This document shows, piece after piece, positions 33,738 to 45,512 of a stretch of 64,000 bases of DNA (positions are counted from its first letter, which is position 1; the number at the start of each line of letters is the position of its first letter). This DNA is from Acidimicrobiales bacterium (GTDB taxonomy: Bacteria > Actinomycetota > Acidimicrobiia > Acidimicrobiales > SZUA-35), in NCBI GenBank assembly GCA_020630065.1, contig JAHDCC010000002.1:113646-177645 (forward strand), given 5' to 3'. The notes under the pieces were generated by a model. It was not told the origin of the DNA and did no database searches. It was given only the letters and a program-made list of their open reading frames with translations. The position numbers and the translations under genes were made by a program.

Positions 33738-35315
33738 ATGGATGAACAAGTAACAACCAACCCCACCCCGATCGTCGAGGTCAACGGAATCACAAAGTCG
33801 TTTGGGGTCACGCAAGCACTCCGGGGCGTTGACCTTCAAATCGGGGCAGGCGAAGTAGTGGCCTTGATGGGGGAGAACGGGGCAGGAAAATCCACTCTCG
33901 GGAAAGTGATCGCAGGTGTTCACCGACCCGACGCCGGAACCGTTCGAGTCGACGGTCAAGAAGTATCGTTTGGTTCGACCAGGGACGCCCTCGAGTACGG
34001 CATTGCGATAGTGCTCCAAGAGTTTAACCTAATCCCCGATATGACCGTGGCCGAAAACCTTTGCTTAACCCGCGACGACGGCTATCTCGGGTCATGGTGG
34101 CGGAACTCCAAAAGGCAACGTCAAATCGCCATCAATGCGATCAACAGTCTCGAATTGGATTTTGGAATTGACCCGGATGCACTCGTCAGCTCGCTTAGCA
34201 TCGCCAAGCAGCAGATAATCGAAATCGTTCGCTCTATGTCGGCTGATGCTCGCCTATTTATTTTAGACGAACCGACGGCGGCGTTAGGGCGCCGGGAAGT
34301 CGAGGCGCTACTGGCCATTATCAGACGGCTGAAGGCAAACGGATCTTCGGTAGTGATCGTTACCCATCGACTCGACGAAGTTTATGCGGTCTCTGACCGT
34401 ATAGCGGTGCTACGCGATGGTGCAGGCAACGGCGAATTCGATCCAGAGACTACCGGTCAAGAAGAGGTGGTCAAAGCGATGGTTGGCCGTGAACTGGGAG
34501 CCGAATTGCAGGCCGCCCGTAAAAGGACACATGACGCTGGTCAAGTGGTGCTTGACGTGAACGATCTTGTGGTGGCTGGTGCTTCTAATCCGGTCAGTTT
34601 CTCGGTCCGTCAGGGGGAAATAATTGGGATCGCCGGGCTAGTTGGAGCTGGTCGAAGCGAACTTGTCCGAGCAATATTTGGCGCCGACGAAGCGCGTTCG
34701 GGAAACGTCTCTGTTAGCGGACGAGTCGGCCTCATGAAATCGCCCTCAGCGGCGGTCGATAACGGGTTAGCTTTGGTGCCTGAAGATAGAAAAGGGCAAG
34801 GCCTTCATCTCGATCTAAGTATCCACGAAAACGCGACCTTAGCAGTCCTGGCTCGGAAGGGCGGATTTTGGTTACATGACCGAGACCTGCGTAAAGCGGT
34901 AGCGGAAAAGATCTCTGATCTTCGAATAAAAATTGGAGATATAGATGACCTAGCGAGTTCGTTGAGTGGAGGAAACCAGCAGAAAGTTGTTCTAGCCAAG
35001 TGGTTGTTAGCGGAACCTGAAGTTCTGGTTCTCGACGAACCTACCCGTGGCGTCGATGTAGGTGCTCGAGCCGACTTCTACCGGCTCATCGATGCATTAG
35101 TCGAAAAAGGTCTAGCAGTAATAGTAATCTCGTCAGAGCTGCCAGAGGTAATGGCGCTCGCAGACCGGATATTGGTCATGAACCAAGGTGAGATCGTGGC
35201 CGAATTGCCGGGAGACGATACCACTGAGGCTGAAATCTTGTCGTACACCGATGTCGGAAAATCTGGAACCAACGAAGAACATCGGGTGCCAGTCGAACAA
35301 ACCCAGATCGCCTAA
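33738..35315 (+). CDS. Sugar ABC transporter ATP-binding protein, two ABC domains (RbsA-like)
   Basis: A 525-residue double ATPase of the RbsA/MglA class. The first domain has Walker A GENGAGKSTLGK, signature SLSIAKQQ and Walker B LFILDEPTAALG. The second has the degenerate P-loop LVGAGRSELV typical of this class, signature LSGGNQQKVV and VLDEPTRGVDVGAR. It energises uptake with the permease at 31515 and the lipoprotein at 32556. The cyclase gene begins 7 bp after its stop. Confidence 0.94.
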   Translation: MDEQVTTNPTPIVEVNGITKSFGVTQALRGVDLQIGAGEVVALMGENGAGKSTLGKVIAGVHRPDAGTVRVDGQEVSFGSTRDALEYGIAIVLQEFNLIPDMTVAENLCLTRDDGYLGSWWRNSKRQRQIAINAINSLELDFGIDPDALVSSLSIAKQQIIEIVRSMSADARLFILDEPTAALGRREVEALLAIIRRLKANGSSVVIVTHRLDEVYAVSDRIAVLRDGAGNGEFDPETTGQEEVVKAMVGRELGAELQAARKRTHDAGQVVLDVNDLVVAGASNPVSFSVRQGEIIGIAGLVGAGRSELVRAIFGADEARSGNVSVSGRVGLMKSPSAAVDNGLALVPEDRKGQGLHLDLSIHENATLAVLARKGGFWLHDRDLRKAVAEKISDLRIKIGDIDDLASSLSGGNQQKVVLAKWLLAEPEVLVLDEPTRGVDVGARADFYRLIDALVEKGLAVIVISSELPEVMALADRILVMNQGEIVAELPGDDTTEAEILSYTDVGKSGTNEEHRVPVEQTQIA

Positions 35316-35322
35316 GGGGCAC

Positions 35323-36132
35323 ATGATGTCTAACTCTACTAATCAGCGGATCGTAGATTTGAGTCTTTTGGTCGGTGAAGAGTATCCGTGTAGTTGGCCG
35401 ACCCACGTTCCGTTCCAACAGAAAATCTACAACTACTTTGCTAACACAGGGGCAGCTGACGCGCCGTTGTTTTCTCATCACGGTGCATATCACACCAGGT
35501 GGCTTCTCATTGACGAACACACCGGTACTCATTTTGATGCACCAGCCCACTTCCTTCCTCCAGAAGAGTCCGGTCTGGAACACGCTGGTCCGCAGGGCAA
35601 CGTTAGTGCCGAACAGGTCCCGTTAGAACAGCTCATCGGCCCCGCAGTGGTTATTGATGTCTCTGTTCTTCTCGACCAAGAAGTGGAGGATGGCCAAAGC
35701 CCATACATACGCGCCGGCCACGTCCAACAGGCCGAAGCCGAGTTTGGGGACATCGAGGCGGGCGACATTGTTCTGTTCCGAAGCGGATGGGACCGACTGC
35801 ACTATAAACCTGGGCCTGAAGGTTCTGCATACGTGACCGACCCTTTCCTGCATCAGACAGGACCCGGATGGCCAGCGCTGTCGATAGAAGCGGCTGATTA
35901 CTTACTTGAGCGTGGGGTGTCTTGTGTTGGTATTGATTCGCCGAGCATGGGTTCTGCTCACGATGGTGCTGCGGTCCACATAGCGGCACTAGGGCAGGGT
36001 TGTGTATTTATCGAGTCGTTGGCGAACTTGGATAAACTTCCAGAACGCGGTGCGACCTTCTTTTTCGCTCCGTTACGGCTCGCCCGTAGCAGCGGGGCAC
36101 CCGGTCGAGCCTTTGCAATGTTGTCTAGTTGA
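35323..36132 (+). CDS. Cyclase-family metal hydrolase (kynurenine formamidase-like fold)
   Basis: A 269-residue protein with the cyclase/PF04199 metal motif HTGTHFDAPAHF (about residues 65-76), plus GIDSPSMGSAHDGAAVH later. Family members include arylformamidase, isatin hydrolase and enzymes that open small cyclic or formylated substrates; the metal is usually Zn or Mn. ATG at 35323 has AGGGG 4 bp upstream and sits 7 bp after the ATPase stop, so it belongs to the importer operon. This suggests it opens a lactone, lactam or amide in the imported compound; that is inference. Confidence 0.88.
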   Translation: MMSNSTNQRIVDLSLLVGEEYPCSWPTHVPFQQKIYNYFANTGAADAPLFSHHGAYHTRWLLIDEHTGTHFDAPAHFLPPEESGLEHAGPQGNVSAEQVPLEQLIGPAVVIDVSVLLDQEVEDGQSPYIRAGHVQQAEAEFGDIEAGDIVLFRSGWDRLHYKPGPEGSAYVTDPFLHQTGPGWPALSIEAADYLLERGVSCVGIDSPSMGSAHDGAAVHIAALGQGCVFIESLANLDKLPERGATFFFAPLRLARSSGAPGRAFAMLSS

Positions 36133-36204
36133 TGCCGTAGGCAGTCGTAGAACCCTATAGTAGATATTCGATATGTTTCAGCTCGTAGCAAAGAAGGCGA
36201 CAAG

Positions 36205-36894
36205 GTGAGTCCCGACATTCCTCAATTGAGACCACTGAGTACCAATAGTCGACAGGGGTTACCGGAGTGGGTCTATGACTCCCTTATCGATTTGCTGCTA
36301 GAGGGAAGTCTTAAACCAGGCCAGCCGCTTCGTATTGATGCGGTAGCCGAACAGCTTGGAGTGTCCGCCACGCCGGTGCGCGAAGCGTTGGTACGGCTAC
36401 AGGCCACCGGTCTTGTCTCACGGGCCACCCATAAAGGGTTCCGCGTGGCCCCCGAACCTGACGGTGCTGAACTTGTCCAACTAATCGAGGCTCGGTTGTA
36501 CTTCGAACCAACCGCCGCCAGGGTCGCATGTGAAGCCGGAGATCCGGGGCTAACCGAGCAACTGCGGGCCGCGTACAGAAGTCAGGAAGAAGCCGGGTCA
36601 AACGAAAGTTTCGAAGAGTTTCGACAGTTTCTCCGGGGGGACCAGATGTTCCACCAAGCAATCATAAACGGCACCGGAAACAACTTTGTGGCGATGGCGG
36701 CTGAAGCCATCAACGGCCATGTTCAACGATTTCGTGCGTTCCACGGACGTGTCATAACCGACCGAACCGAAACACTTGACGAGCACCTCAAAATTCTTCA
36801 AGCCTTCGAAAACGGTGATCCAGAGGCAGCCGAAGCCGCGATGCGTAACCACCTGATTCAAGTTCGAGAGCGCGTTTCAGTAACCCATAGCTGA
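36205..36894 (+). CDS. GntR-family transcriptional regulator, FadR subfamily
   Basis: A 229-residue regulator. The N-terminal winged helix includes AVAEQLGVSATPVREALVRL at about residues 47-66, and the C-terminal all-helical FCD domain binds a small acid or sugar-acid effector. The FCD metal-site pattern is partly visible in QMFHQAIINGTGN. GTG start. It lies 72 bp after the cyclase gene and is the likely regulator of the sugar or acid cluster at 29.4-36.1 kb. Confidence 0.93.
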   Translation: MSPDIPQLRPLSTNSRQGLPEWVYDSLIDLLLEGSLKPGQPLRIDAVAEQLGVSATPVREALVRLQATGLVSRATHKGFRVAPEPDGAELVQLIEARLYFEPTAARVACEAGDPGLTEQLRAAYRSQEEAGSNESFEEFRQFLRGDQMFHQAIINGTGNNFVAMAAEAINGHVQRFRAFHGRVITDRTETLDEHLKILQAFENGDPEAAEAAMRNHLIQVRERVSVTHS

Positions 36895-36973: not shown

Positions 36974-37002
36974 TTGACACCCGTCACTTGATGTACTGTA
37001 AG
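36974..37002 (+). promoter_or_regulatory. Candidate promoter of the urea/amide importer operon
   Basis: A consensus -35 hexamer TTGACA (36974-36979) and a weak -10-like TGTAAG at 36997-37002, spaced by 17 bp. Transcription from here would give a leader of about 230 nt before the binding-protein gene, containing several hairpins. Confidence 0.5.
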
Positions 37003-37004
37003 AG

Positions 37005-37061
37005 AACGGCGAAGATGCTGTAGAGTCCGGCAGGACTCAAACATATAACGGCGAAGAAGCC
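37005..37061 (+). promoter_or_regulatory. Candidate ANTAR-responsive leader: tandem hexaloop hairpins
   Basis: An 11-nt direct repeat AACGGCGAAGA occurs at 37005-37015 and 37047-37057. Each copy starts a small hairpin with a six-base loop: 37006-37021 (5-bp stem, loop GAAGAT) and 37050-37061 (3-bp stem, loop GAAGAA). A third hairpin lies between (37023-37038, 6-bp stem). ANTAR proteins are known to bind paired hairpins with six-base loops, usually A at position 1 and G at position 4; here G4 is met but A1 is not. An AmiR-type ANTAR gene ends this operon. No strong U-tract follows, which weakens an antitermination model. Confidence 0.45.
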
Positions 37062-37150
37062 ACGAGATATTTGACCGGGATTCCCGGCAGGTTCGAACGT
37101 GTGCGTATTGCTGTTTCTTATACCTTCTGTGTTTCCCCAGGCTCGTGAGT

Positions 37151-37176
37151 GGGTCTGGACATTCGTATGTCCACCC
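37151..37176 (+). promoter_or_regulatory. Hairpin in the importer leader
   Basis: TGGACAT (37156-37162) pairs with ATGTCCA (37167-37173) over a 4-nt loop, extended by three G-C pairs after a 2-nt bulge. A mildly T-rich stretch follows. It may be the terminator element controlled by the upstream hairpins, or simply leader structure. The remaining parts of 36895-37238 hold a CCGGG/CCCGG hairpin at 37075-37087 and no gene. Confidence 0.35.
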
Positions 37177-37238
37177 TCGCCCTTTGCTTGTGTGTCGTAC
37201 TTCGGTGGCACCGTGCCGCCGGGAGATGGAGGAGGAAC

Positions 37239-38570
37239 ATGGCAATACTGGCCAACAAAAACCCGAATTCGGGTAGCAAATTTACATGGAAAATAGGATC
37301 GATACTTTTGACGCTCGGCCTCGTGCTAGCGGCATGTAGCAGCGGTCAAGAAAGCAGCGAAGCAGGGTCTGACACTACTGGGTCGAAAGGCTCATCTGAG
37401 GACAACGGCAACGGTGAAGCTAGTGGCGAGCCGATTACTATCGGCTCGATATTTGACCTCACCGGCGGCCTCAACATTTACGGCATCCAACAAGATCGAG
37501 CGCTGCAATTGGCGGTCAACAACCTCAACGACAACGGCGGAGTTCTAGGCCGAACCGTTGAGGTATCGACGGCTGACGCCCAGTCCGAAGATACCAAATA
37601 CACCCAATTTGCAAACACGTTGATCCAACGAGACGAAGTTGTTGCGCTGTTTGCTGGTCTAACCAGCTCATCACGCGAAGCTATTCGTCCGATCATTCGT
37701 GAAAACGAGATTCCATACTTCTACTCATCGTTGTATGAAGGTGGAGCATGCGATAAACAAACATTTGTTACCGGAGCTACCGCTTCGCAGCAGATGAGCG
37801 TTCTGATCGAATGGGCGGTCAAAGAGTACGGCAACAAGATTTATCTCATGGCGCCGGACTACAACTTTGGAACTATCTCTGGCCACTGGGTTGAGTTCTA
37901 TGCCAAAGAGTTCGACGCCACCGTTGTTGGACAGGACTTTATCCCACTGACGGTTACCGACTATCAACCGGTCATCAACAAGATTCAGGCAGCTGATCCT
38001 GACTTTGTTGTTGCTATTCCCGTTGGCGCAAACCAGACAGGGTTCTTGGAACAGTTCTCGGCGGCCGGTCTCAAAGAAGACATCGGCATCGTTTCGACCA
38101 ACTACGGATCGGGCAACCAACAAATCGTTGTTTCCCCCGAAGCCGGAGACGGAATCATTGCTTCCCAAGAATATTTCATGGTCGTTGACGAACCAGCTAA
38201 CAAAGAATTCGTCGACCTCTGGGAAGACGCATATGGTCTAGAAGAACCAATCGTCTCTGAGGCTGCTGATGTCTGGAACGCGGTTAACCTTTGGGCTGCC
38301 GCAGTGGAACTGGCGGGAACCACCGATAACGAAGCCGTTATCGAAGCTCTCGAGAGTGGACTTACATTCTCCGGTCCAAACGGCGTCGTGGAAATGAACC
38401 CAGGTTCTCACCACCTGACACAGAATATCTACATCGTTGAAGGTAACGACCAGCAGGAGTTCGAAGTAATCGAGACCTTCGAAGCAGCTGAACCTAGCTA
38501 CGAGAACGGGATCTGTGACCTAGTCGCCGACCCAGAAATCACCGAGCATTTCACCCCCGGTGATCTCTAA
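37239..38570 (+). CDS. Urea/short-chain amide-type ABC transporter substrate-binding lipoprotein
   Basis: A 443-residue periplasmic-binding protein of the UrtA/FmdD/AmiC group. The signal peptide has lipobox LAAC (Cys33), then a Gly/Ser-rich linker of about 35 residues. The domain begins PITIGSIFDLTGGLNIYG and contains YFYSSLYEGGACD and VTGATASQQM, the positions where family members contact urea or amides. The ATG at 37239 follows GGAGGAGGAAC, a near-perfect ribosome-binding site; the frame extends upstream but without a plausible leader peptide. It is followed by two strong hairpins and then the permease genes. The precise ligand is not known. Confidence 0.92.
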   Translation: MAILANKNPNSGSKFTWKIGSILLTLGLVLAACSSGQESSEAGSDTTGSKGSSEDNGNGEASGEPITIGSIFDLTGGLNIYGIQQDRALQLAVNNLNDNGGVLGRTVEVSTADAQSEDTKYTQFANTLIQRDEVVALFAGLTSSSREAIRPIIRENEIPYFYSSLYEGGACDKQTFVTGATASQQMSVLIEWAVKEYGNKIYLMAPDYNFGTISGHWVEFYAKEFDATVVGQDFIPLTVTDYQPVINKIQAADPDFVVAIPVGANQTGFLEQFSAAGLKEDIGIVSTNYGSGNQQIVVSPEAGDGIIASQEYFMVVDEPANKEFVDLWEDAYGLEEPIVSEAADVWNAVNLWAAAVELAGTTDNEAVIEALESGLTFSGPNGVVEMNPGSHHLTQNIYIVEGNDQQEFEVIETFEAAEPSYENGICDLVADPEITEHFTPGDL

Positions 38571-38595
38571 ATAGTAAGAGCGCAGTGAAGCGCAC

Positions 38596-38662
38596 GGAAG
38601 GGGTACTGCGGTACCCCTTCCATCTGGTATTTCGTTGGGTCTTGAGCTCAACGAAATACCAG
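38596..38662 (+). promoter_or_regulatory. Two perfect tandem hairpins between binding protein and permease genes
   Basis: Hairpin one has an 11-bp perfect stem (38596-38606 with 38611-38621) and a 4-nt loop. Hairpin two has a 14-bp perfect stem (38624-38637 with 38649-38662) and an 11-nt loop. Neither has a U-tract. They begin 26 bp after the binding-protein stop. Likely roles are 3'-end protection of the binding-protein mRNA and lowered expression of the downstream genes. Confidence 0.8.
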
Positions 38663-38706
38663 GTGCGTCGAACCTTCAAAGACTACATCGAAAGGGAAAT
38701 AGGTCT

Positions 38707-39573
38707 ATGGACCTTGATTATTTACTTGTACTACTACTTGGATCGGTGACCGCGGCGGCAACGTTACTGATCGCCACCGTTGGGCTAGCCGTTGTCTACG
38801 GACTTATGGGGGTCGTGAATCTGGCTCACGGTGAGTTTCTCATGTTCGGCGCCTACACGACCCTGACTGTCACTCGAATGGGTGTCCCGTTTGTGCTCGC
38901 AATTCTGGTGGGTGTCATCATCACTAGTTTGTTTGGAGCCATCGTCGAAGTGCTTCTCATCAAACCGATGTATGGGCGTCTGCTGGACACCATGTTGGCA
39001 ACGTGGGGGCTGAGTTTGGTTCTCGTCCAAGCAGCGGTATTACAGTTCGGAACCGTCACGCCTGGTGTTGGGCTTCCTCAGTGGAGCATCAGCATTGGGG
39101 ACTTCGAGATGTCTACGTACTTGCTTCTGATGGTTCCAGCCGCAGCGGTAATAGTCGCAGCCATCTACCTTCTCTTTACTCGAACCTCTTACGGGGTGAT
39201 GGCCCGAGCATCCATTCAAGATCGACAGATGGCCTCAGCCGTCGGCATCGAAACTTCGTGGATTAACACTATTACTTTTGCGTTAGGCGCAGGCCTTGCC
39301 GGATTAGCTGGCGGGCTTCTACTCCCTGCCGTACCAGCGACCCCAGATATGGGTTTGTTGTTCGTAATAAAAGCGTTTCTAATCGTGGTGTCGGCCGGAC
39401 CAGCAGCTTTGTCTGGAACAGCAGCGACCGGCGGCATTTTAGCTTCCACCACGAGTGTCACCGCCAACATTTGGGGATCAGCGCTTGGTGACCTTATGTT
39501 CTTTGTGGCGACAATAGCGATCCTTCGGCTGTTCCCTCTTGGGATTTCTCACAAGTGGAGGATCCGTCTATGA
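38707..39573 (+). CDS. Branched-chain amino acid/urea-type ABC permease (UrtB/LivH-like)
   Basis: A 288-residue permease with about eight transmembrane segments. VYGLMGVVNLAHGEFLMFGAY is the family signature near residues 30-50, and the cytoplasmic RASIQDRQMASAVGI loop (about 165-180) is the ATPase contact. It lacks the long N-terminal extracytoplasmic domain found in many UrtB proteins. The ATG at 38707 is used; the upstream in-frame start lies within the second hairpin. The next gene's ATG overlaps its TGA. Confidence 0.92.
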   Translation: MDLDYLLVLLLGSVTAAATLLIATVGLAVVYGLMGVVNLAHGEFLMFGAYTTLTVTRMGVPFVLAILVGVIITSLFGAIVEVLLIKPMYGRLLDTMLATWGLSLVLVQAAVLQFGTVTPGVGLPQWSISIGDFEMSTYLLLMVPAAAVIVAAIYLLFTRTSYGVMARASIQDRQMASAVGIETSWINTITFALGAGLAGLAGGLLLPAVPATPDMGLLFVIKAFLIVVSAGPAALSGTAATGGILASTTSVTANIWGSALGDLMFFVATIAILRLFPLGISHKWRIRL

Positions 39574-41450
39574 GCGTCCAATCTGTAACAACACCTCCAG
39601 AACGCTCCGCTTCAGAACTCCAAGAGTCTCTAGGCACGAAATCCCGGCCACTTTCAGATCGATTTTGGTGGATGGCTCCGGTTCTAGCTAGCGTCATCAT
39701 GCTGGCCGTTGTGTTTATCAAAGAGGAGTCGTTTGCATTTGTAGCGACCTCTTGGATCATATTTGGGATCGTCGGGTTAAGCCTAGACCTGGTCTGGGGT
39801 AAATCTGGACTTTTGAGCCTTGGTCAAACCGCACTCTTTGGCATCGGCGGATATGTAGGCGCCATCGCGGCGATTAACTTATCGGACATAACCGGTAACA
39901 CACTGGTCTGGGCCATACCGTTTGGGGCAGGTGCCGGAGCGTTGGCAGCCCTACTCCTAGGTTGGCTCATGTTTTATGCCAACATGGGCAACTTACAACG
40001 AACGATCTTGACCTATACCTCCACGTTATTGTTACTGACCCTTATGGTGTCGTTCACCGCCACGTTCGGTGACGCAGTCGTTGGCGGAACGAATGGCCTA
40101 GGCAGCATTCCGTCCTACGTTCTGGGGTTCGGCGAAGGAGCTGAACGGGTTAGTTCCCGGGTCATGTTCGTAACCGTGGTGGTGATTGCGTGCAGTATTT
40201 TGTTGGCGACGATCAGACTGATGCGCTCGCCGTTTGGCACCGTCATCGACTGCATTCGCTTAGACGTAACCAAAGCTGACTTGCTTGGGTTTGATACTCG
40301 ACAATACCAGCTCCGACTTTTTGTTCTCTCAGGAGCGATTGCCGGCGTCGGCGGAGGACTGTTTGTCCTATGGGCGAATTTCGTAAACCCATCGATATTC
40401 AGCAATCAGAATGCCCTGTTCATACCTATCTATGTTTTGGTCGGTGGAATTGGCACACTCTTCGGAGGTTTCGTCGGGGCGATCGCCGTGGGCTGGTTAT
40501 CGTTCTGGCTCGGTGGAGGCGCAGGAGGGGGACAGACCACTCTTGTGCTCGGTGTGCTGCTCATTCTTCTTGTCCGTTTCAACCGCTCTGGACTGTTCGG
40601 AATAGCGGCCAGTGTCTGGCGTCGATTGCGACCGAAGGAGACCACGGTCGTTAAATCCGAACCGGTGAAGGTTGATTTCGAACTGTTGCAGCGACTCCGC
40701 GAAGGTCAAACAAAACCATCAGAGATTTCACTCGTAACCAACGACGCCTCCAAGTCGTTTGGAGGAGTGAAACCGGTAGACGAAGTATCGCAACGATTTA
40801 CCCCAGGCAGTGTACATTGTGTGATCGGGCCCAACGGGGCCGGAAAAAGCTCGTACCTGAAGGTATGCACCGGTGCGTATAAACCGGATAGCGGATCGGT
40901 ATCGATCAACGGCGTAGACGTTACGTCGACCGACCCACACAAACGGGTTGCCTTGGGCCTTGGCGTAAAAAACCAAAAAGCTCAAGTGTTCGCCGAGCTT
41001 GATGTGCGAACGAACCTGTGGGTCGCTGCGTACTCACGAAGCAGAAATTCGGATCACGCAGATAGCACGGTTGACGCCATGCTGCAGATGTTAGGCATGA
41101 CCAAAGGGGCGGACCGGTTAGCCGGAGACCTTTCTCACGGTGAGCAGCAATGGCTCGACATCGGCATGGTATTATGCCTGGCCCCTGACGTCATTCTGCT
41201 AGACGAACCAGCGGCGGGTATGACGGGCGAAGAGCGGGAACAACTCGCAGCACTCGTACGAGCCTTAACCGAAACGGCTGCCGTGGTTGTCGTCGAACAC
41301 GATATGGGATTTATTCAATCGCTCGACCCGGAGGTAACCGTTCTGCATCAAGGTGCCGTCTTTACTCAAGGTGATATCGAAGAGGTCCGCAGCGACGAGC
41401 GGGTGCTCGACATTTATTTAGGAAGGCGTGAACATGTTCGAGATAACTAA
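39570..41450 (+). CDS. Fused permease-ATPase (UrtC-UrtD-like) of urea/amide importer
   Basis: A 626-residue fusion. The N-terminal 350 residues are a LivM/UrtC permease with about nine to ten helices (GLSLDLVWGKSGLLSLGQT near residue 65-83). The C-terminal 245 residues are an ABC ATPase: Walker A GPNGAGKSSYLK, signature LSHGEQQWLDIGM and Walker B ILLDEPAAGMTGEE. The LSHGE and AGMT wording is diagnostic of UrtD rather than LivG. UrtC and UrtD are normally separate proteins. ATG at 39570, overlapping the previous stop (ATGA), with GGAGG upstream. The junction is in frame, with a linker of about 30 residues containing EPVKVDFELLQRLREG. Confidence 0.92.
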   Translation: MSVQSVTTPPERSASELQESLGTKSRPLSDRFWWMAPVLASVIMLAVVFIKEESFAFVATSWIIFGIVGLSLDLVWGKSGLLSLGQTALFGIGGYVGAIAAINLSDITGNTLVWAIPFGAGAGALAALLLGWLMFYANMGNLQRTILTYTSTLLLLTLMVSFTATFGDAVVGGTNGLGSIPSYVLGFGEGAERVSSRVMFVTVVVIACSILLATIRLMRSPFGTVIDCIRLDVTKADLLGFDTRQYQLRLFVLSGAIAGVGGGLFVLWANFVNPSIFSNQNALFIPIYVLVGGIGTLFGGFVGAIAVGWLSFWLGGGAGGGQTTLVLGVLLILLVRFNRSGLFGIAASVWRRLRPKETTVVKSEPVKVDFELLQRLREGQTKPSEISLVTNDASKSFGGVKPVDEVSQRFTPGSVHCVIGPNGAGKSSYLKVCTGAYKPDSGSVSINGVDVTSTDPHKRVALGLGVKNQKAQVFAELDVRTNLWVAAYSRSRNSDHADSTVDAMLQMLGMTKGADRLAGDLSHGEQQWLDIGMVLCLAPDVILLDEPAAGMTGEEREQLAALVRALTETAAVVVVEHDMGFIQSLDPEVTVLHQGAVFTQGDIEEVRSDERVLDIYLGRREHVRDN

Positions 41451-42132
41451 CGCGACTGGTGGCTATGAGAAAACTCGGATAATCGAAGACGCGTCCATCA
41501 AGGTCGACAAGGGTGAAGTGGTAGCACTGTTGGGGCGAAACGGTGTGGGCAAGACCACACTGTTCAAATATGCCATGGGATTGATCGACCGAGAAAACGG
41601 CTCGGTCAGTCTCGGCGGCAAAGAGCTTCCGGCGGCGACGTCTCGTCGGGTCCGAGCCGGCTTGGGTTACGTCCCACAGGGGAGGTTCGTGTTTCCACGG
41701 CTTACGGTTTCGGAGAACATAGCGGCCGCTGCAGCTGCGAACCGGCATGATCGTAAGAAAGCTGTCGCTCAGGCCCTCGAAGACTTTCCTCTGCTTAAAC
41801 CCAAGGCCAACACGTTGGCTGGCAAACTTAGCGGCGGTCAACAACAAGTTTTGGCTATGGCCCGGGCGTTAGCAACCGAACCTGAAGTGCTTTTGCTCGA
41901 CGAACCCACCGAAGGCATTCAACCGTCGATTATCGACGACATCGCCGGGATCATCAAAACGCTTAATGTCGAACGGGGGATTTCGATTCTTGTGGCTGAA
42001 CAAGATCTCGAGTTTTGTCGAGCGGTCGCTAAACGGGCCTACGTCATGGATCGTGGCCAAATCGTCGACGAGGTTTCGATCGAGGCTCTGCTAGAAAACG
42101 AAGAGCTCGTGCAACGATTGCTCGGCGTATGA
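41434..42132 (+). CDS. urtE: ABC transporter ATP-binding protein UrtE-like
   Basis: A 232-residue ATPase. Walker A GRNGVGKTTLFK, signature LSGGQQQVLAMARAL and Walker B VLLLDEPTEGIQPSIID are present; the TEGIQPSI continuation is characteristic of UrtE. It pairs with the UrtD-like half of the fusion to form the importer's two ATPases. GTG at 41428 is in frame, but GGAAGG is spaced correctly only for the ATG at 41434. Overlaps the preceding gene by 17 bp and the next by 4 bp. Confidence 0.92.
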   Translation: MFEITNATGGYEKTRIIEDASIKVDKGEVVALLGRNGVGKTTLFKYAMGLIDRENGSVSLGGKELPAATSRRVRAGLGYVPQGRFVFPRLTVSENIAAAAAANRHDRKKAVAQALEDFPLLKPKANTLAGKLSGGQQQVLAMARALATEPEVLLLDEPTEGIQPSIIDDIAGIIKTLNVERGISILVAEQDLEFCRAVAKRAYVMDRGQIVDEVSIEALLENEELVQRLLGV

Positions 42133-42350
42133 GTAGCGAAACAGAATCGACGACACAAAACTCAGCGCTGGCGACAGCAGCCGCATATCGTCGGGCGATG
42201 GGATGGCCGCCGCTCGAAGGGGACGTCCTCAAAGAGGTTGTCGTCATCCTCGAATCGGCCCGTAGGACAGTCGAACGAATCGAAGTCGACCCGGCGACGT
42301 TGCCAGCGGTATGTACTACAGCCCCGACTTTAGTTGGAGATAAACCATGA
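42129..42350 (+). CDS. Small AtzG/GatC-like amidase partner protein (probable)
   Basis: A 73-residue acidic protein translated through coupled starts (ATGA overlaps on both sides, with urtE and the amidase gene). It has a short helical pattern, AAAYRRAMGWPPLEGD, then VVVILESARRTVERIEVDP and a Pro-containing tail. This resembles the layout of DUF4089/AtzG, the GatC-like small subunit that binds the amidase AtzE, more than any other family I know. The similarity is by eye and weak. Position directly before an amidase-signature gene supports it strongly. Confidence 0.6.
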   Translation: MSSETESTTQNSALATAAAYRRAMGWPPLEGDVLKEVVVILESARRTVERIEVDPATLPAVCTTAPTLVGDKP

Positions 42351-43756
42351 ACTCGGCCACCATTTTGTCGCTTTCAGTGCAGGAGCTCTCAGAACGTATT
42401 CGAACACTCGAATTGTCCTCGACCGAGGTAGCGACCTCAGTTGTCGACCGTCTCGAAGAGTTGCAAGACGAACTCAATACCTTTGTGTACTGGGACCGAG
42501 ACCTAATCTTTCATCGAGCCGCCGAGCTCGATGCGCTAGCAAAAGTTGGCGACTTTGCCGGTGACCTTCATGGCATCCCACTAGCGGTAAAAGACAATTT
42601 TCTAACCGCCGACTGTCCGAGCACGGTTGGTTCAAGGGTGAACCATGCCCGAGGGGTACCCCGGACAGATTCGGCTCCCGTCCATGCCCTACGCTCCAAC
42701 GGTGCCCTTATTGTCGGTAAAACCAATATGCACGAATGGGCCTACGGTGCAACAAACGAGGTGTCGGCTAGTGGCCGAACCCGTAACCCATGGAACCCAA
42801 ATCGCATTACCGGTGGCTCTAGTGGTGGTTCTGGTGCGGCGTTAGCGGCGCGAATCGTTCCCGCCGCTCTCGGTTCCGATACGGGAGGCTCGATCAGGAT
42901 TCCGGCAGCCGCCTGCGGAGTGAGTGGTCTCAAACCTTCGTTTGGTGTTCACAATCTCGATGGTGTTCTTCCGTTGGCATGGTCGTTCGATGTTCCAGGA
43001 CCAATGGCTCGTACAGCGGTCGATTTGGGACTCTTACTTCGGGCAATGTTGCCAGCATCGGCGGTGTCGAGTCTCTCGACATCTTTGATGGCTTTGGATG
43101 ATTTGCGGATTGGTAAAGTTTCTGGCAGCGATGTTGTTGTCAGCGTCGAGGTTGATGAAGCCTTAGATGTGGCGGTCGCGGTTCTTGCTGAAGCTGGAGC
43201 GAAAGTCGATAGTGCCGAGGTAAACAACATGGCGTTTAGCTTTGATGTTTGGAAAGTTATTCTCCACGCAGAAGCCGCCGCCTATCACACGGATTTGTTG
43301 ACCGATCAAAACGATCGATACTCAACCGGTGTGCGTACCCAACTTGAAGCTGGCCGGGCGATTCCGGCTGCCGACTATCTCCAAGCCCAACGGTTTAGGC
43401 GAGAGTTCAGCGCACAAGTTCTTCGACTATTTGATCGATTCGATGTGCTGCTGTTGCCAACGTTGCCGGTTTGTGCCCCACCTGCTGGTCGACATGACCT
43501 GGTTGTGAGGGACGTTCCGATAACGGCTCAAGACGCCATGACTCGCTTGCCGAGTTTGGCCAGTTTTACCGGTCTTCCAGCGGTGACGGTGCCATGTGGG
43601 TTCGGCGACGAAGGTCTACCGGTCGGAATGAGCTTGATCGGCCGTCCGGGATCTGATTTCGGCCTCGTGTCACTCGCAGCACGCTTTCAGGAGCTAACGT
43701 CGTGGCATGAATCATCTCCTGGGCTGGTAACTGACCTGGGTGAACGTGGAGGGTGA
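42347..43756 (+). CDS. Amidase-signature family amidohydrolase
   Basis: A 469-residue amidase-signature enzyme (GatA/AtzE relatives). The Ser-cisSer-Lys triad is visible: catalytic Lys in LAVKDNF (about residue 80) and the Gly/Ser-rich block TGGSSGGSGAALAARIVP to GSDTGGSIRIPAA (about 158-188) with the two serines. The family cleaves linear amides to acid and ammonia. Linked to a urea/amide importer, an AmiC-like sensor and an AmiR-like regulator, it probably releases ammonia from an imported amide, ureide or carbamoyl compound. It is not the nitrilase-type AmiE of Pseudomonas. Possible true substrates include carboxybiuret-like compounds, but this is not shown. Confidence 0.92.
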   Translation: MNSATILSLSVQELSERIRTLELSSTEVATSVVDRLEELQDELNTFVYWDRDLIFHRAAELDALAKVGDFAGDLHGIPLAVKDNFLTADCPSTVGSRVNHARGVPRTDSAPVHALRSNGALIVGKTNMHEWAYGATNEVSASGRTRNPWNPNRITGGSSGGSGAALAARIVPAALGSDTGGSIRIPAAACGVSGLKPSFGVHNLDGVLPLAWSFDVPGPMARTAVDLGLLLRAMLPASAVSSLSTSLMALDDLRIGKVSGSDVVVSVEVDEALDVAVAVLAEAGAKVDSAEVNNMAFSFDVWKVILHAEAAAYHTDLLTDQNDRYSTGVRTQLEAGRAIPAADYLQAQRFRREFSAQVLRLFDRFDVLLLPTLPVCAPPAGRHDLVVRDVPITAQDAMTRLPSLASFTGLPAVTVPCGFGDEGLPVGMSLIGRPGSDFGLVSLAARFQELTSWHESSPGLVTDLGERGG

Positions 43757-43757
43757 C

Positions 43758-44885
43758 GTGACAAACAAAAAAGCAGTCCGTCGTGTAGGGGTACTGTTTT
43801 CGAATACGGGGGTCATGAGTGTCACCGAAGAAGCACACCTCAAAGGGGTCTTAGTTGCGATTGAGGAGATCAACAACGACCCAACTGCGACTTTTCTGAT
43901 TGAACCCATCGTCGAAGATCCTGGGTCTGATCCGAATCAGTACAAGGTGCTGGCAAAGAAGCTGGCTACCGTCGATGGCGTTTCCGCTATCTTTGGTTGT
44001 TGTTCCTCAGCGAGTCGCAAGGCAGTACTTCCAATCTTGGCTCGATACGGCACTGTTCTGTTCTATCCCTCTGTGTATGAGGGGTTCGAGTACTCGCCAA
44101 ATGTGGTGTATGGGGGAGCGACCCCAAACCAGACCGTTTTGCCGTTGATCGAGTACCTTTTCTCCAACTACGGTACCAGACTTTATACGGTTGGTTCTGA
44201 CTATATTTACGCTCGTGAGATCAATCGGATAGTCGCCGAGTTGCTTGACGACGGGGCCGGAACGATTGTTGGCGAGTCGTATGTGCCGCTAGGTTCCCCA
44301 GGGTCGGCTTTTGGGCGCGTGGCCCAAGACGTTGCCTCTAGCGATATCGATGCTGTGCTGTCAACGGTCGTTGGTGCCGATACCTCTCTTCTATATGAAG
44401 CGGTTATCGACGCTGGGTGTTCCGCCCCGATTGCGAGTCTGACTACGACCGAAAGCGAGTTAGCTACGATCAGGGCCGACGCTACAGCTGGTCACATAAC
44501 TGCTGCGTGCTATTTTGGGGCGCTGCAGACCGAAGAGAACCAAGTATTCCGGTCGATCTATCAGCAGCGGTACGGCCCTGGTGATATACCCTCGATCTAT
44601 GCCCAAACGACGTATTCACAAGTCCATGCGTATGCAAAGGCCTGTAGCTTCATTGGGTCGGATGATCCGGAAGAATTGTTGGAGGCCGTTAACGGGCTTC
44701 GCTATGTCGCTCCTCAAGGCGCGATGTTGGTTGACGCGGACAATAATCACGTATACAACGTCCCGAGGATTGGGCTGTCGCGTGCAGACGGTGAGTTCGA
44801 TATTGTCTGGCAAGGTGAACAAACCAAGCCTGACCCGTACCTTATTGCCTATGATCGTGAAGTCCCGACGTTTACCGATGCTTAG
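43758..44885 (+). CDS. amiC: AmiC-like cytoplasmic amide sensor
   Basis: A 375-residue periplasmic-binding-protein fold without signal peptide, which fits AmiC, the cytoplasmic amide receptor that restrains the antiterminator AmiR. Typical segments are VGVLFSNTGVMSVTE, LFYPSVYEGFEYSPNVVYGG, PNQ, GSDYIYARE, VLSTVVGADT, PIASLTTTESE and the end RPDPY-like KPDPYLIAYD. The GTG at 43758 has GGAGG 6 bp upstream and begins 1 bp after the amidase stop. Binding an inducing amide should release AmiR, encoded 24 bp downstream. Confidence 0.95.
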   Translation: MTNKKAVRRVGVLFSNTGVMSVTEEAHLKGVLVAIEEINNDPTATFLIEPIVEDPGSDPNQYKVLAKKLATVDGVSAIFGCCSSASRKAVLPILARYGTVLFYPSVYEGFEYSPNVVYGGATPNQTVLPLIEYLFSNYGTRLYTVGSDYIYAREINRIVAELLDDGAGTIVGESYVPLGSPGSAFGRVAQDVASSDIDAVLSTVVGADTSLLYEAVIDAGCSAPIASLTTTESELATIRADATAGHITAACYFGALQTEENQVFRSIYQQRYGPGDIPSIYAQTTYSQVHAYAKACSFIGSDDPEELLEAVNGLRYVAPQGAMLVDADNNHVYNVPRIGLSRADGEFDIVWQGEQTKPDPYLIAYDREVPTFTDA

Positions 44886-44909
44886 CTCGATGTCGCAGGT
44901 CGCTGGCCG

Positions 44910-45512
44910 ATGACAAGGTCTGACCCGTCGAAACGGCTTCTCAAAACGCTTCGCAAAGCCCGAGTGGGGGTGTTTCACCCTCCGGATGAAGACGGTGAGA
45001 ATCTAGAACAACAACTTCGCCGTATTGGCTGTCAGGTTACAACCCATTGGCCTCCTCCATCTACGTTGGTTGACGATCTGGATGTGGTGTTTTTTCTAGA
45101 TGGCCCTGACTATCAAGATCTTCATCAGCCGTACTCTGATTCTCGTTCTGCTGCGTTGGTGGCAATCGTTGAGTTCGAGAGCCCACTCGAAATTCAACGC
45201 CTTGTCGACGCCAATATTCACGGTACGATCGCTAAGCCGATCCAGTCGATTGGTGTGTTGGCATGTATGGCTTCGGCGCTTGGGTTGTTCCGGTATGAGT
45301 CGCGGCTGACAGCTCGGATCGATAAGTTGGACGAAATGCTGAAGACCCGTCGGACCGTCGAGCGGGCCACCCAGGTATTAGCGTCTCATCGTAATGTCTC
45401 TGAAGATGAAGCGTATGTGATGATCCGCCGTGAAGCGATGAATAAACAGATCACGATTTTTGAGATGGCTACTTCGGTCCTTAATGCTGATCAGTTCTTT
45501 ACCGGTATCTAG
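44910..45512 (+). CDS. amiR: AmiR-like ANTAR-domain transcription antiterminator
   Basis: A 200-residue protein with a pseudo-receiver domain (about 15-130), a coiled coil and a C-terminal ANTAR RNA-binding domain (about 140-195: RRTVERATQVLASHRNVSEDEAYVMIRREAMN). The receiver lacks a clear phosphoacceptor pocket, as in Pseudomonas AmiR, which is controlled by AmiC binding rather than phosphorylation. ANTAR proteins bind paired hairpins in leaders to prevent termination; the operon's own leader at 37005-37061 is the natural target. Last gene of the amide operon. Confidence 0.94.
   Translation: MTRSDPSKRLLKTLRKARVGVFHPPDEDGENLEQQLRRIGCQVTTHWPPPSTLVDDLDVVFFLDGPDYQDLHQPYSDSRSAALVAIVEFESPLEIQRLVDANIHGTIAKPIQSIGVLACMASALGLFRYESRLTARIDKLDEMLKTRRTVERATQVLASHRNVSEDEAYVMIRREAMNKQITIFEMATSVLNADQFFTGI

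Follow-up and report, generated by a model that had tools for sequence, protein, structure and literature searches.

An AmiC/AmiR-type operon with a Urt-family importer and an amidase-signature enzyme in an Acidimicrobiales bacterium

What does a bacterial importer of the urea-transporter (Urt) family carry when its genes stand in line with those of an amidase and of the amide-responsive regulators AmiC and AmiR? The question is raised by positions 36974-45512 (+ strand) of the window, a 64,000-nt stretch of contig JAHDCC010000002.1 from an Acidimicrobiales bacterium. The original prediction had described this region as nine contiguous elements on one strand, and all of them were located where it had placed them: a promoter/leader followed by eight genes. 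The operon is a real, conserved variant of known regulated amide operons. It probably imports and hydrolyses a primary amide other than urea, and would be induced by that amide or by a related one through AmiC/AmiR antitermination.

The first four genes supply all five Urt functions. The UrtA-like substrate-binding protein (37239-38570; Pfam Peripla_BP_6) starts at ATG 37239, with a GGAGG ribosome site, and the gene is followed by those of a UrtB-like permease (38707-39573; BPD_transp_2), of a UrtC-UrtD fusion that joins permease and ATPase (39555-41450; BPD_transp_2 and ABC_tran), a fusion also present in the orthologous loci, and of a UrtE-like ATPase (41428-42132; ABC_tran). A small protein of 73 amino acids, probably AtzG-like (42129-42350), comes next, its gene overlapping by 4 nt both urtE and the gene of the amidase-signature hydrolase (42347-43756; Amidase, PF01425). 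The last two genes encode an AmiC-like cytoplasmic amide receptor (43740, or likelier GTG 43758, to 44885; Peripla_BP_5) and an AmiR-like antiterminator (44910-45512; AmiR_N pseudo-receiver and ANTAR). Pfam matches of the seven main proteins are all far over cut-off. Distances from urtB to the amidase gene are -19, -23, -4 and -4 nt; amiC begins at -17 nt from the amidase gene, or at +1 nt with the better ribosome site of GTG 43758, and amiR lies 24 nt further on. The tight packing claimed for the downstream genes is thus borne out, since the last seven overlap by 4-23 nt or lie within about 25 nt of each other. Spacing, gene order and the single leader suggest that all eight genes would be read as one transcript.

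The arrangement is not confined to the source genome. Searching one genome of each species with a UrtA profile yielded 49 loci, to which three plasmids were added. Co-occurrence of an AmiC-ANTAR pair with a Urt importer and an amidase, which the original prediction had proposed to look for, was seen in 33 loci besides the window, with the seven main genes in the order A-B-CD-E-amidase-AmiC-AmiR; several of the remaining loci without the full set are cut by contig ends. The loci belong mostly to Alpha-, Beta- and Gammaproteobacteria, and single unclassified and Spirochaetota contigs of metagenome-assembled genomes (MAGs) hold part of the set. Identical gene order is found on plasmids of Variovorax paradoxus, Vibrio nigripulchritudo and Rhizobium sp. 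TH2, to whose proteins those of the window are 64-69% (UrtA), 56-58% (UrtB), 53-57% (UrtCD), 58-62% (UrtE), 41-47% (amidase), 46-51% (AmiC) and 39-47% (AmiR) identical. Because the order is kept in 33 other loci, the arrangement is not due to chance, and the cluster is a conserved module of many proteobacteria.

The ligand pocket of UrtA was mapped by alignment to the marine UrtA structure 7s6e. In the Prochlorococcus protein, urea binding is lost or much weakened by mutation of Ser122, Gln144, Tyr190 or Asn246 and by the W120A exchange (PMC10392092). The window UrtA retains Ser143 and Tyr208 and carries Leu141 for Trp120, Leu165 for Gln144 and Val262 for Asn246. These replacements are general among the 49 operon orthologs, with Leu at the Trp120 site in all 49, Leu at the Gln144 site in 48 and Val at the Asn246 site in 48; this last site is a gap in one of two alignments and Val in the other, and Asn in neither. 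Since the key urea contacts are replaced, the name urea importer does not fit, and the sequence of the binding protein is not that of a urea receptor. In NCBIfam the A, B, D and E functions nevertheless score best against models of urea Urt proteins, all below their cut-offs (351 bits against 494.8 for UrtA, 258 against 374 for UrtB, 239 against 304 for UrtD and 260 against 286 for UrtE). A family that scores best against urea models in spite of its lost contacts may receive annotations that mislead surveys of the nitrogen cycle.

The second receptor is the AmiC-like protein, which matches P. aeruginosa AmiC (1pea) with an E-value of 7e-70. Its N-terminus has no signal peptide and UrtA has a lipobox (LVLAAC), so the proposed division into one exported and one cytoplasmic receptor holds. 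The equivalents of P. aeruginosa Ser85, Tyr104 and Tyr152 are kept as Ser90, Tyr109 and Tyr157, and the changes are Cys88 for Tyr83, Ser111 for Thr106 and Val112 for Pro107. We take the compared positions to line the pocket; the search output itself shows only the Thr106/Asn106 difference of 1qnl. UrtA and AmiC are about 25% identical, and in both of them the Gln and Asn of urea receptors are replaced by hydrophobic residues. From these pocket residues both would seem suited to a carboxamide bearing a non-polar side group, and less to urea, and it is plausible that they bind the same ligand. Having one receptor exported and the other cytoplasmic, both from one transcript, would allow one to ask whether the specificities of uptake and sensing evolve together. 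The amiR product matches the AmiR chain of 1qo0 (E-value 7e-22), with AmiR_N and ANTAR both over cut-off, and its gene adjoins amiC; AmiC and AmiR thus both resemble proteins of the solved P. aeruginosa complex. The linkage of an AmiC/AmiR pair with an importer of Urt type and an amidase outside the nitrilase family, as first described from the window, is supported, and the architecture of the leader fits AmiR antitermination.

The leader was first compared among the proteobacterial relatives. In 34 of them a TTGAC promoter upstream of urtA is directly followed by two small tandem hexaloop hairpins, P1 and P2, typically GTGC[GACGAT]GCAC and AGC[GACGCA]GCT. RNAalifold, unprompted, returned exactly these two helices from the 34 leaders; 97.5% of the alignment cells pair and three pairs show changes on both sides. 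The covariation score exceeded that of all 500 shuffles and of all slid versions, shuffle counts that the kinship of the sequences may inflate. By folding, 30 of the 34 leaders have a terminator stem built with the 5′ arm or the loop of P2 and followed by a T run, which is doubtful in one or two of them. Position 4 of the loop is G in 32 of the 34 P1 hairpins and in 24 of the P2 hairpins, and position 1 is a purine in 32 leaders for both loops, G being commoner there than A, which the published rule requires. Published ANTAR targets combine two hexaloop hairpins with a terminator that cannot form together with the second of them, and ANTAR RNA motifs upstream of urea-type transporters were predicted in 2012 (PMC3369931). 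By folding, the leaders of 30 of the relatives are of this known antitermination design. With a variable promoter region and a fixed hairpin logic in some 34 genomes, including loops that start with G instead of A, they provide a test set for RNA reading by ANTAR proteins of the AmiR type. In L048 (2182-2291) and in most proteobacterial leaders a conserved segment past the terminator (such as GTGTTCAGC) is complementary to GCTGAACAC, just 3′ of P2, and the two may form a further long-range helix.

The leader of the window has the same elements in the same place. A promoter-like site (36974-37002) consists of TTGACA (36974-36979), a 17-nt spacer and TGTAAG (36997-37002), and lies just before P1 at the same promoter-to-hairpin distance as in the relatives. 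P1 (37006-37021), ACGGC[GAAGAU]GCUGU, has a hexaloop closed by C-G, appears in both the minimum-free-energy and the centroid folds and agrees in position and loop type with P1 of the 34 relatives. Folding also gives P2 (37050-37061), GGC[GAAGAA]GCC, and between the two a middle hairpin, GAGUCC-GGCA-GGACUC (37023-37038). The 5′ arm of P2 is contained in AACGGCGA (37047-37054), whose alternative partner is UUGCUGUU (37108-37115), with UCUU next to it, so that a terminator-like structure (37047-37119; -28.2 kcal/mol) would be exclusive with P2. The three hairpins occur in the same order in L037, L038, L039 and L046, the loci nearest to the window in the tree, with the equivalent terminator, AAGCGGCAAAG/UUUGCUGCUU and then a U-run, in L037 and L038. 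The paired motif GGCGAAGANGCY...GGCGAAGANGCY occurs once in the 3.7-Mb genome, and a tandem at least as good as that of the window arose in 20 of 20,000 dinucleotide shuffles of the leader. By structural analogy, the window leader would follow the antitermination plan of its relatives, two hexaloop hairpins with the second exclusive with a predicted terminator. A second strong hairpin, UGGACAU-UCGU-AUGUCCA (37147-37181), could be a further terminator and is not conserved.

Several results weigh against a single, AmiR-controlled transcript or limit the value of the tandem motif: (i) the scan that found the tandem in the leader found eight others elsewhere in the window, for which reason the hairpin motif alone is not proof; (ii) the covariance model R1, built from the 34 proteobacterial leaders, misses the window leader, and its best matches in the window look like chance; (iii) the U tract of the predicted terminator, UCUU, is weak; (iv) both loops have G at position 1 and G at position 4, while the classic ANTAR rule wants A1 and G4, and (v) the 136-nt gap between urtA and urtB, the only sizeable one, holds two strong hairpins. 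The R1 model also misses the leaders of the nearest relatives of the window; these leaders, like that of the window, are too divergent for it and have the middle hairpin. A hexaloop scan restricted to A1/G4 found no match in the window leader because its loops begin with G, and an Rfam search of the window gave no match. Given the failure of R1, the case for the window leader rests on the shared architecture, the place and the moderate shuffle test. The hairpins between urtA and urtB (38596-38664) are adjacent, of 11 and 19 bp, with a fold z-score of -8 and without a U-run, and perhaps set the level of urtA mRNA apart from that of the downstream genes. A dispersed repeat was considered for them and ruled out, as they are single copy in the genome.

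We propose the following model. Without ligand, cytoplasmic AmiC would hold AmiR and the RNA polymerase would halt at the leader terminator, so that only basal amounts of importer, amidase and regulators would be made. Once an amide enters and binds AmiC, AmiR would be freed and its ANTAR dimer would bind the hexaloop hairpins P1 and P2. As P2 forms, the terminator would lose its 5′ arm, and transcription would run through the entire operon. Substrate bound by the lipoprotein UrtA would then pass to UrtB/UrtCD/UrtE for import, and the amidase, paired with the AtzG-like protein, would release ammonia as a nitrogen source. As the transcript would end with amiC and amiR, the circuit would be autoregulated.

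The hydrolase offers hints about the substrate. The Ser-Ser-Lys triad of the amidase signature, Lys82, Ser158 and Ser182, is invariant in four aligned sequences. Its best curated models are AtzE (312.5 bits, cut-off 461) and indoleacetamide hydrolase (311 bits), both below cut-off; the enzyme is 33% identical to AtzE of pADP-1, and AtzE is among its nearest solved relatives. Most loci have a small open reading frame in the slot before the amidase gene. For the small protein, Pfam, NCBIfam and the PDB gave no credible match, and a PF13318 search in the class gave none either, with its controls equally empty. Compared with AtzG by hhalign, a profile of 26 of the small proteins reached 84% probability and a score of 30.4, while 200 column shuffles scored no higher than 14.4. 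AtzE is insoluble without AtzG, a partner that has no catalytic function itself (PMC6219798). The small protein is probably an AtzG-like amidase subunit, and a heteromeric amidase is likely.

Enzymes of the tryptophan 2-monooxygenase type convert amino acids to primary amides, and five loci have a gene for a flavoprotein of this kind beside the operon (L047:18275-20602, L062:6584-8707, L066:7345-9519, L065:2-994 and L055:18040-19167). The products have 700-776 amino acids, being partial in two of the loci, and their best solved relative is tryptophan 2-monooxygenase (E-value 9e-25). These neighbours hint at amino-acid-derived amides, so that the operon might take up, sense and hydrolyse indole-3-acetamide, phenylacetamide or 5-aminovaleramide. 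The indoleacetamide hydrolase model, second best for the amidase and nearly level with AtzE, agrees with such a route; the flavoprotein gene, however, is seen in five loci only, three of them of one genus, none was found in the source genome in one search without positive control, and its product, only distantly related to known 2-monooxygenases, could be a plain oxidase. We regard this narrower substrate as possible, if rather unlikely. Still more doubtful is the wide extension of it, a widespread operon family whose 'urea' importer carries amino-acid-derived amides such as indole-3-acetamide, sensed by AmiC and cleaved by an AtzG-dependent amidase, which would amount to an ANTAR-controlled uptake of auxin precursors or aryl amides acquired by an actinobacterium.

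The AtzE relationship can also be read in another way, with a true urea-type transporter and an AtzE/AtzG-like enzyme attacking a ureide, so that the operon would handle urea itself or biuret or 1-carboxybiuret. The preference of the importer proteins for urea models, the likeness of the small protein to AtzG and the urease genes that adjoin other AmiC/AmiR pairs in Aminobacter and Ancylobacter speak for it. Yet no Urt model is reached at cut-off and the AtzE score is far from its own; the counterparts of Trp120, Gln144 and Asn246 are replaced in nearly every UrtA ortholog, and neither the operon nor the flanking gene clusters examined showed a urease, atzD or atzF gene. A urea or ureide substrate is accordingly improbable. 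That AmiC/AmiR control something else and only happen to lie beside the importer and amidase genes, a notion to which the failure of R1 in the window leader lends some colour, is very improbable against a gene order held in 33 other loci of three proteobacterial classes, an ANTAR-type leader directly before urtA in the relatives and a paired hairpin motif unique in the genome.

The proposed amide operon resembles P. aeruginosa amiEBCRS in its AmiC, its AmiR with AmiR_N and ANTAR, its leader with paired hexaloop hairpins and terminator and the place of the regulators at the end of the transcript. It differs in having no nitrilase-type AmiE and no AmiS among its open reading frames, and in their place has the Urt-type ABC importer, the amidase-signature enzyme and the AtzG-like subunit. 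The importer is homologous to the five-function UrtABCDE urea importer, here with C and D fused in a set of four genes, but the binding protein has no urea contacts Gln144/Asn246 and the NCBIfam urea cut-offs are not reached. As in the AtzG-AtzE 1-carboxybiuret hydrolase of atzDGEHF and hpx-like clusters, the small-subunit gene lies directly 5′ of the amidase-signature gene, whereas the identity to AtzE is 33% and no AtzD, AtzF or AtzH was identified at the window operon.

That no system of this make-up had been described is correct in part. The exact combination was not found in the open-access literature, subscription papers being outside the search, but AmiC/AmiR with an ABC importer and AmiE is known from the amiE-amiC-amiR-ABC operon of a Klebsiella plasmid (PMC13209695). 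That operon likewise unites AmiC/AmiR, an amidase and an ABC importer; it differs in that its amidase is AmiE and its four-gene importer belongs to another transporter cluster, with neither the Urt family nor an amidase-signature enzyme. UrtABCDE with amidase/formamidase is known from the same paper, which places urtABCDE with formamidase and without AmiC/AmiR in Pseudomonas veronii (PMC13209695). New are the shared leader of the relatives, the loss of the urea contacts in UrtA, the AtzG-like small protein and the nearby 2-monooxygenase-like genes. Two of our loci, amiC-amiR-urtABCDE-amiE of Labrenzia (L032) and amiC-amiR-nitrilase-urt-amidase of Rhizobium (L034), also place AmiC/AmiR beside a Urt-type importer and an amide hydrolase, but in another order and with other hydrolases, and their importer proteins, at 28-45% identity, are far less similar. 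Among the other AmiC/AmiR neighbourhoods (L031-L034), urease genes stand in Ancylobacter and Aminobacter, AmiE in Labrenzia, and a nitrilase with an amidase in Rhizobium; those of Labrenzia, Aminobacter and Rhizobium are on annotated plasmids and include a Urt-type importer.

How the operon came to an actinobacterium can be approached through its distribution. The genome encodes six WhiB proteins, a family that among 14 control genomes is present in Corynebacterium glutamicum alone, in keeping with an actinomycete host. UrtA orthologs were found in none of 395 other sampled Actinomycetota genomes and in none of 38 other genomes of the family of the host, and AmiR_N is over cut-off only in the source genome among 396 genomes of the phylum. 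The absence of UrtA orthologs from the other sampled Actinomycetota suggests horizontal acquisition, most simply from a proteobacterial lineage. Trees of the importer and of the amidase and regulator proteins group the window, which has a long branch, with Variovorax, Microvirga and a number of MAGs. The GC content of the operon, 0.52-0.55, is level with that of its surroundings and shows no trace of a recent transfer; the proposed transfer would therefore not be recent. The lipobox of UrtA, for which the aligned proteobacterial orthologs have ordinary signal peptides, we read as an adaptation to the actinobacterial envelope.

Upstream of the operon (33738-36894) lie genes for a sugar-type ABC ATPase, a putative cyclase/formamidase (PF04199) and a GntR/FCD regulator, with no conserved tie to it. 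The sole other ANTAR protein found in the genome (L001; G000:C7:199349-199507) is encoded elsewhere and has no AmiR_N match. A MetX-like alpha/beta hydrolase of the PRK07581 subfamily is encoded in or beside the operon in L028 (6342-7349), L064, L061 and L069. In Variovorax a second amidase gene (PRK08310) lies 3′ of amiR, and Variovorax and Microvirga have both the MetX-like hydrolase and the second amidase.

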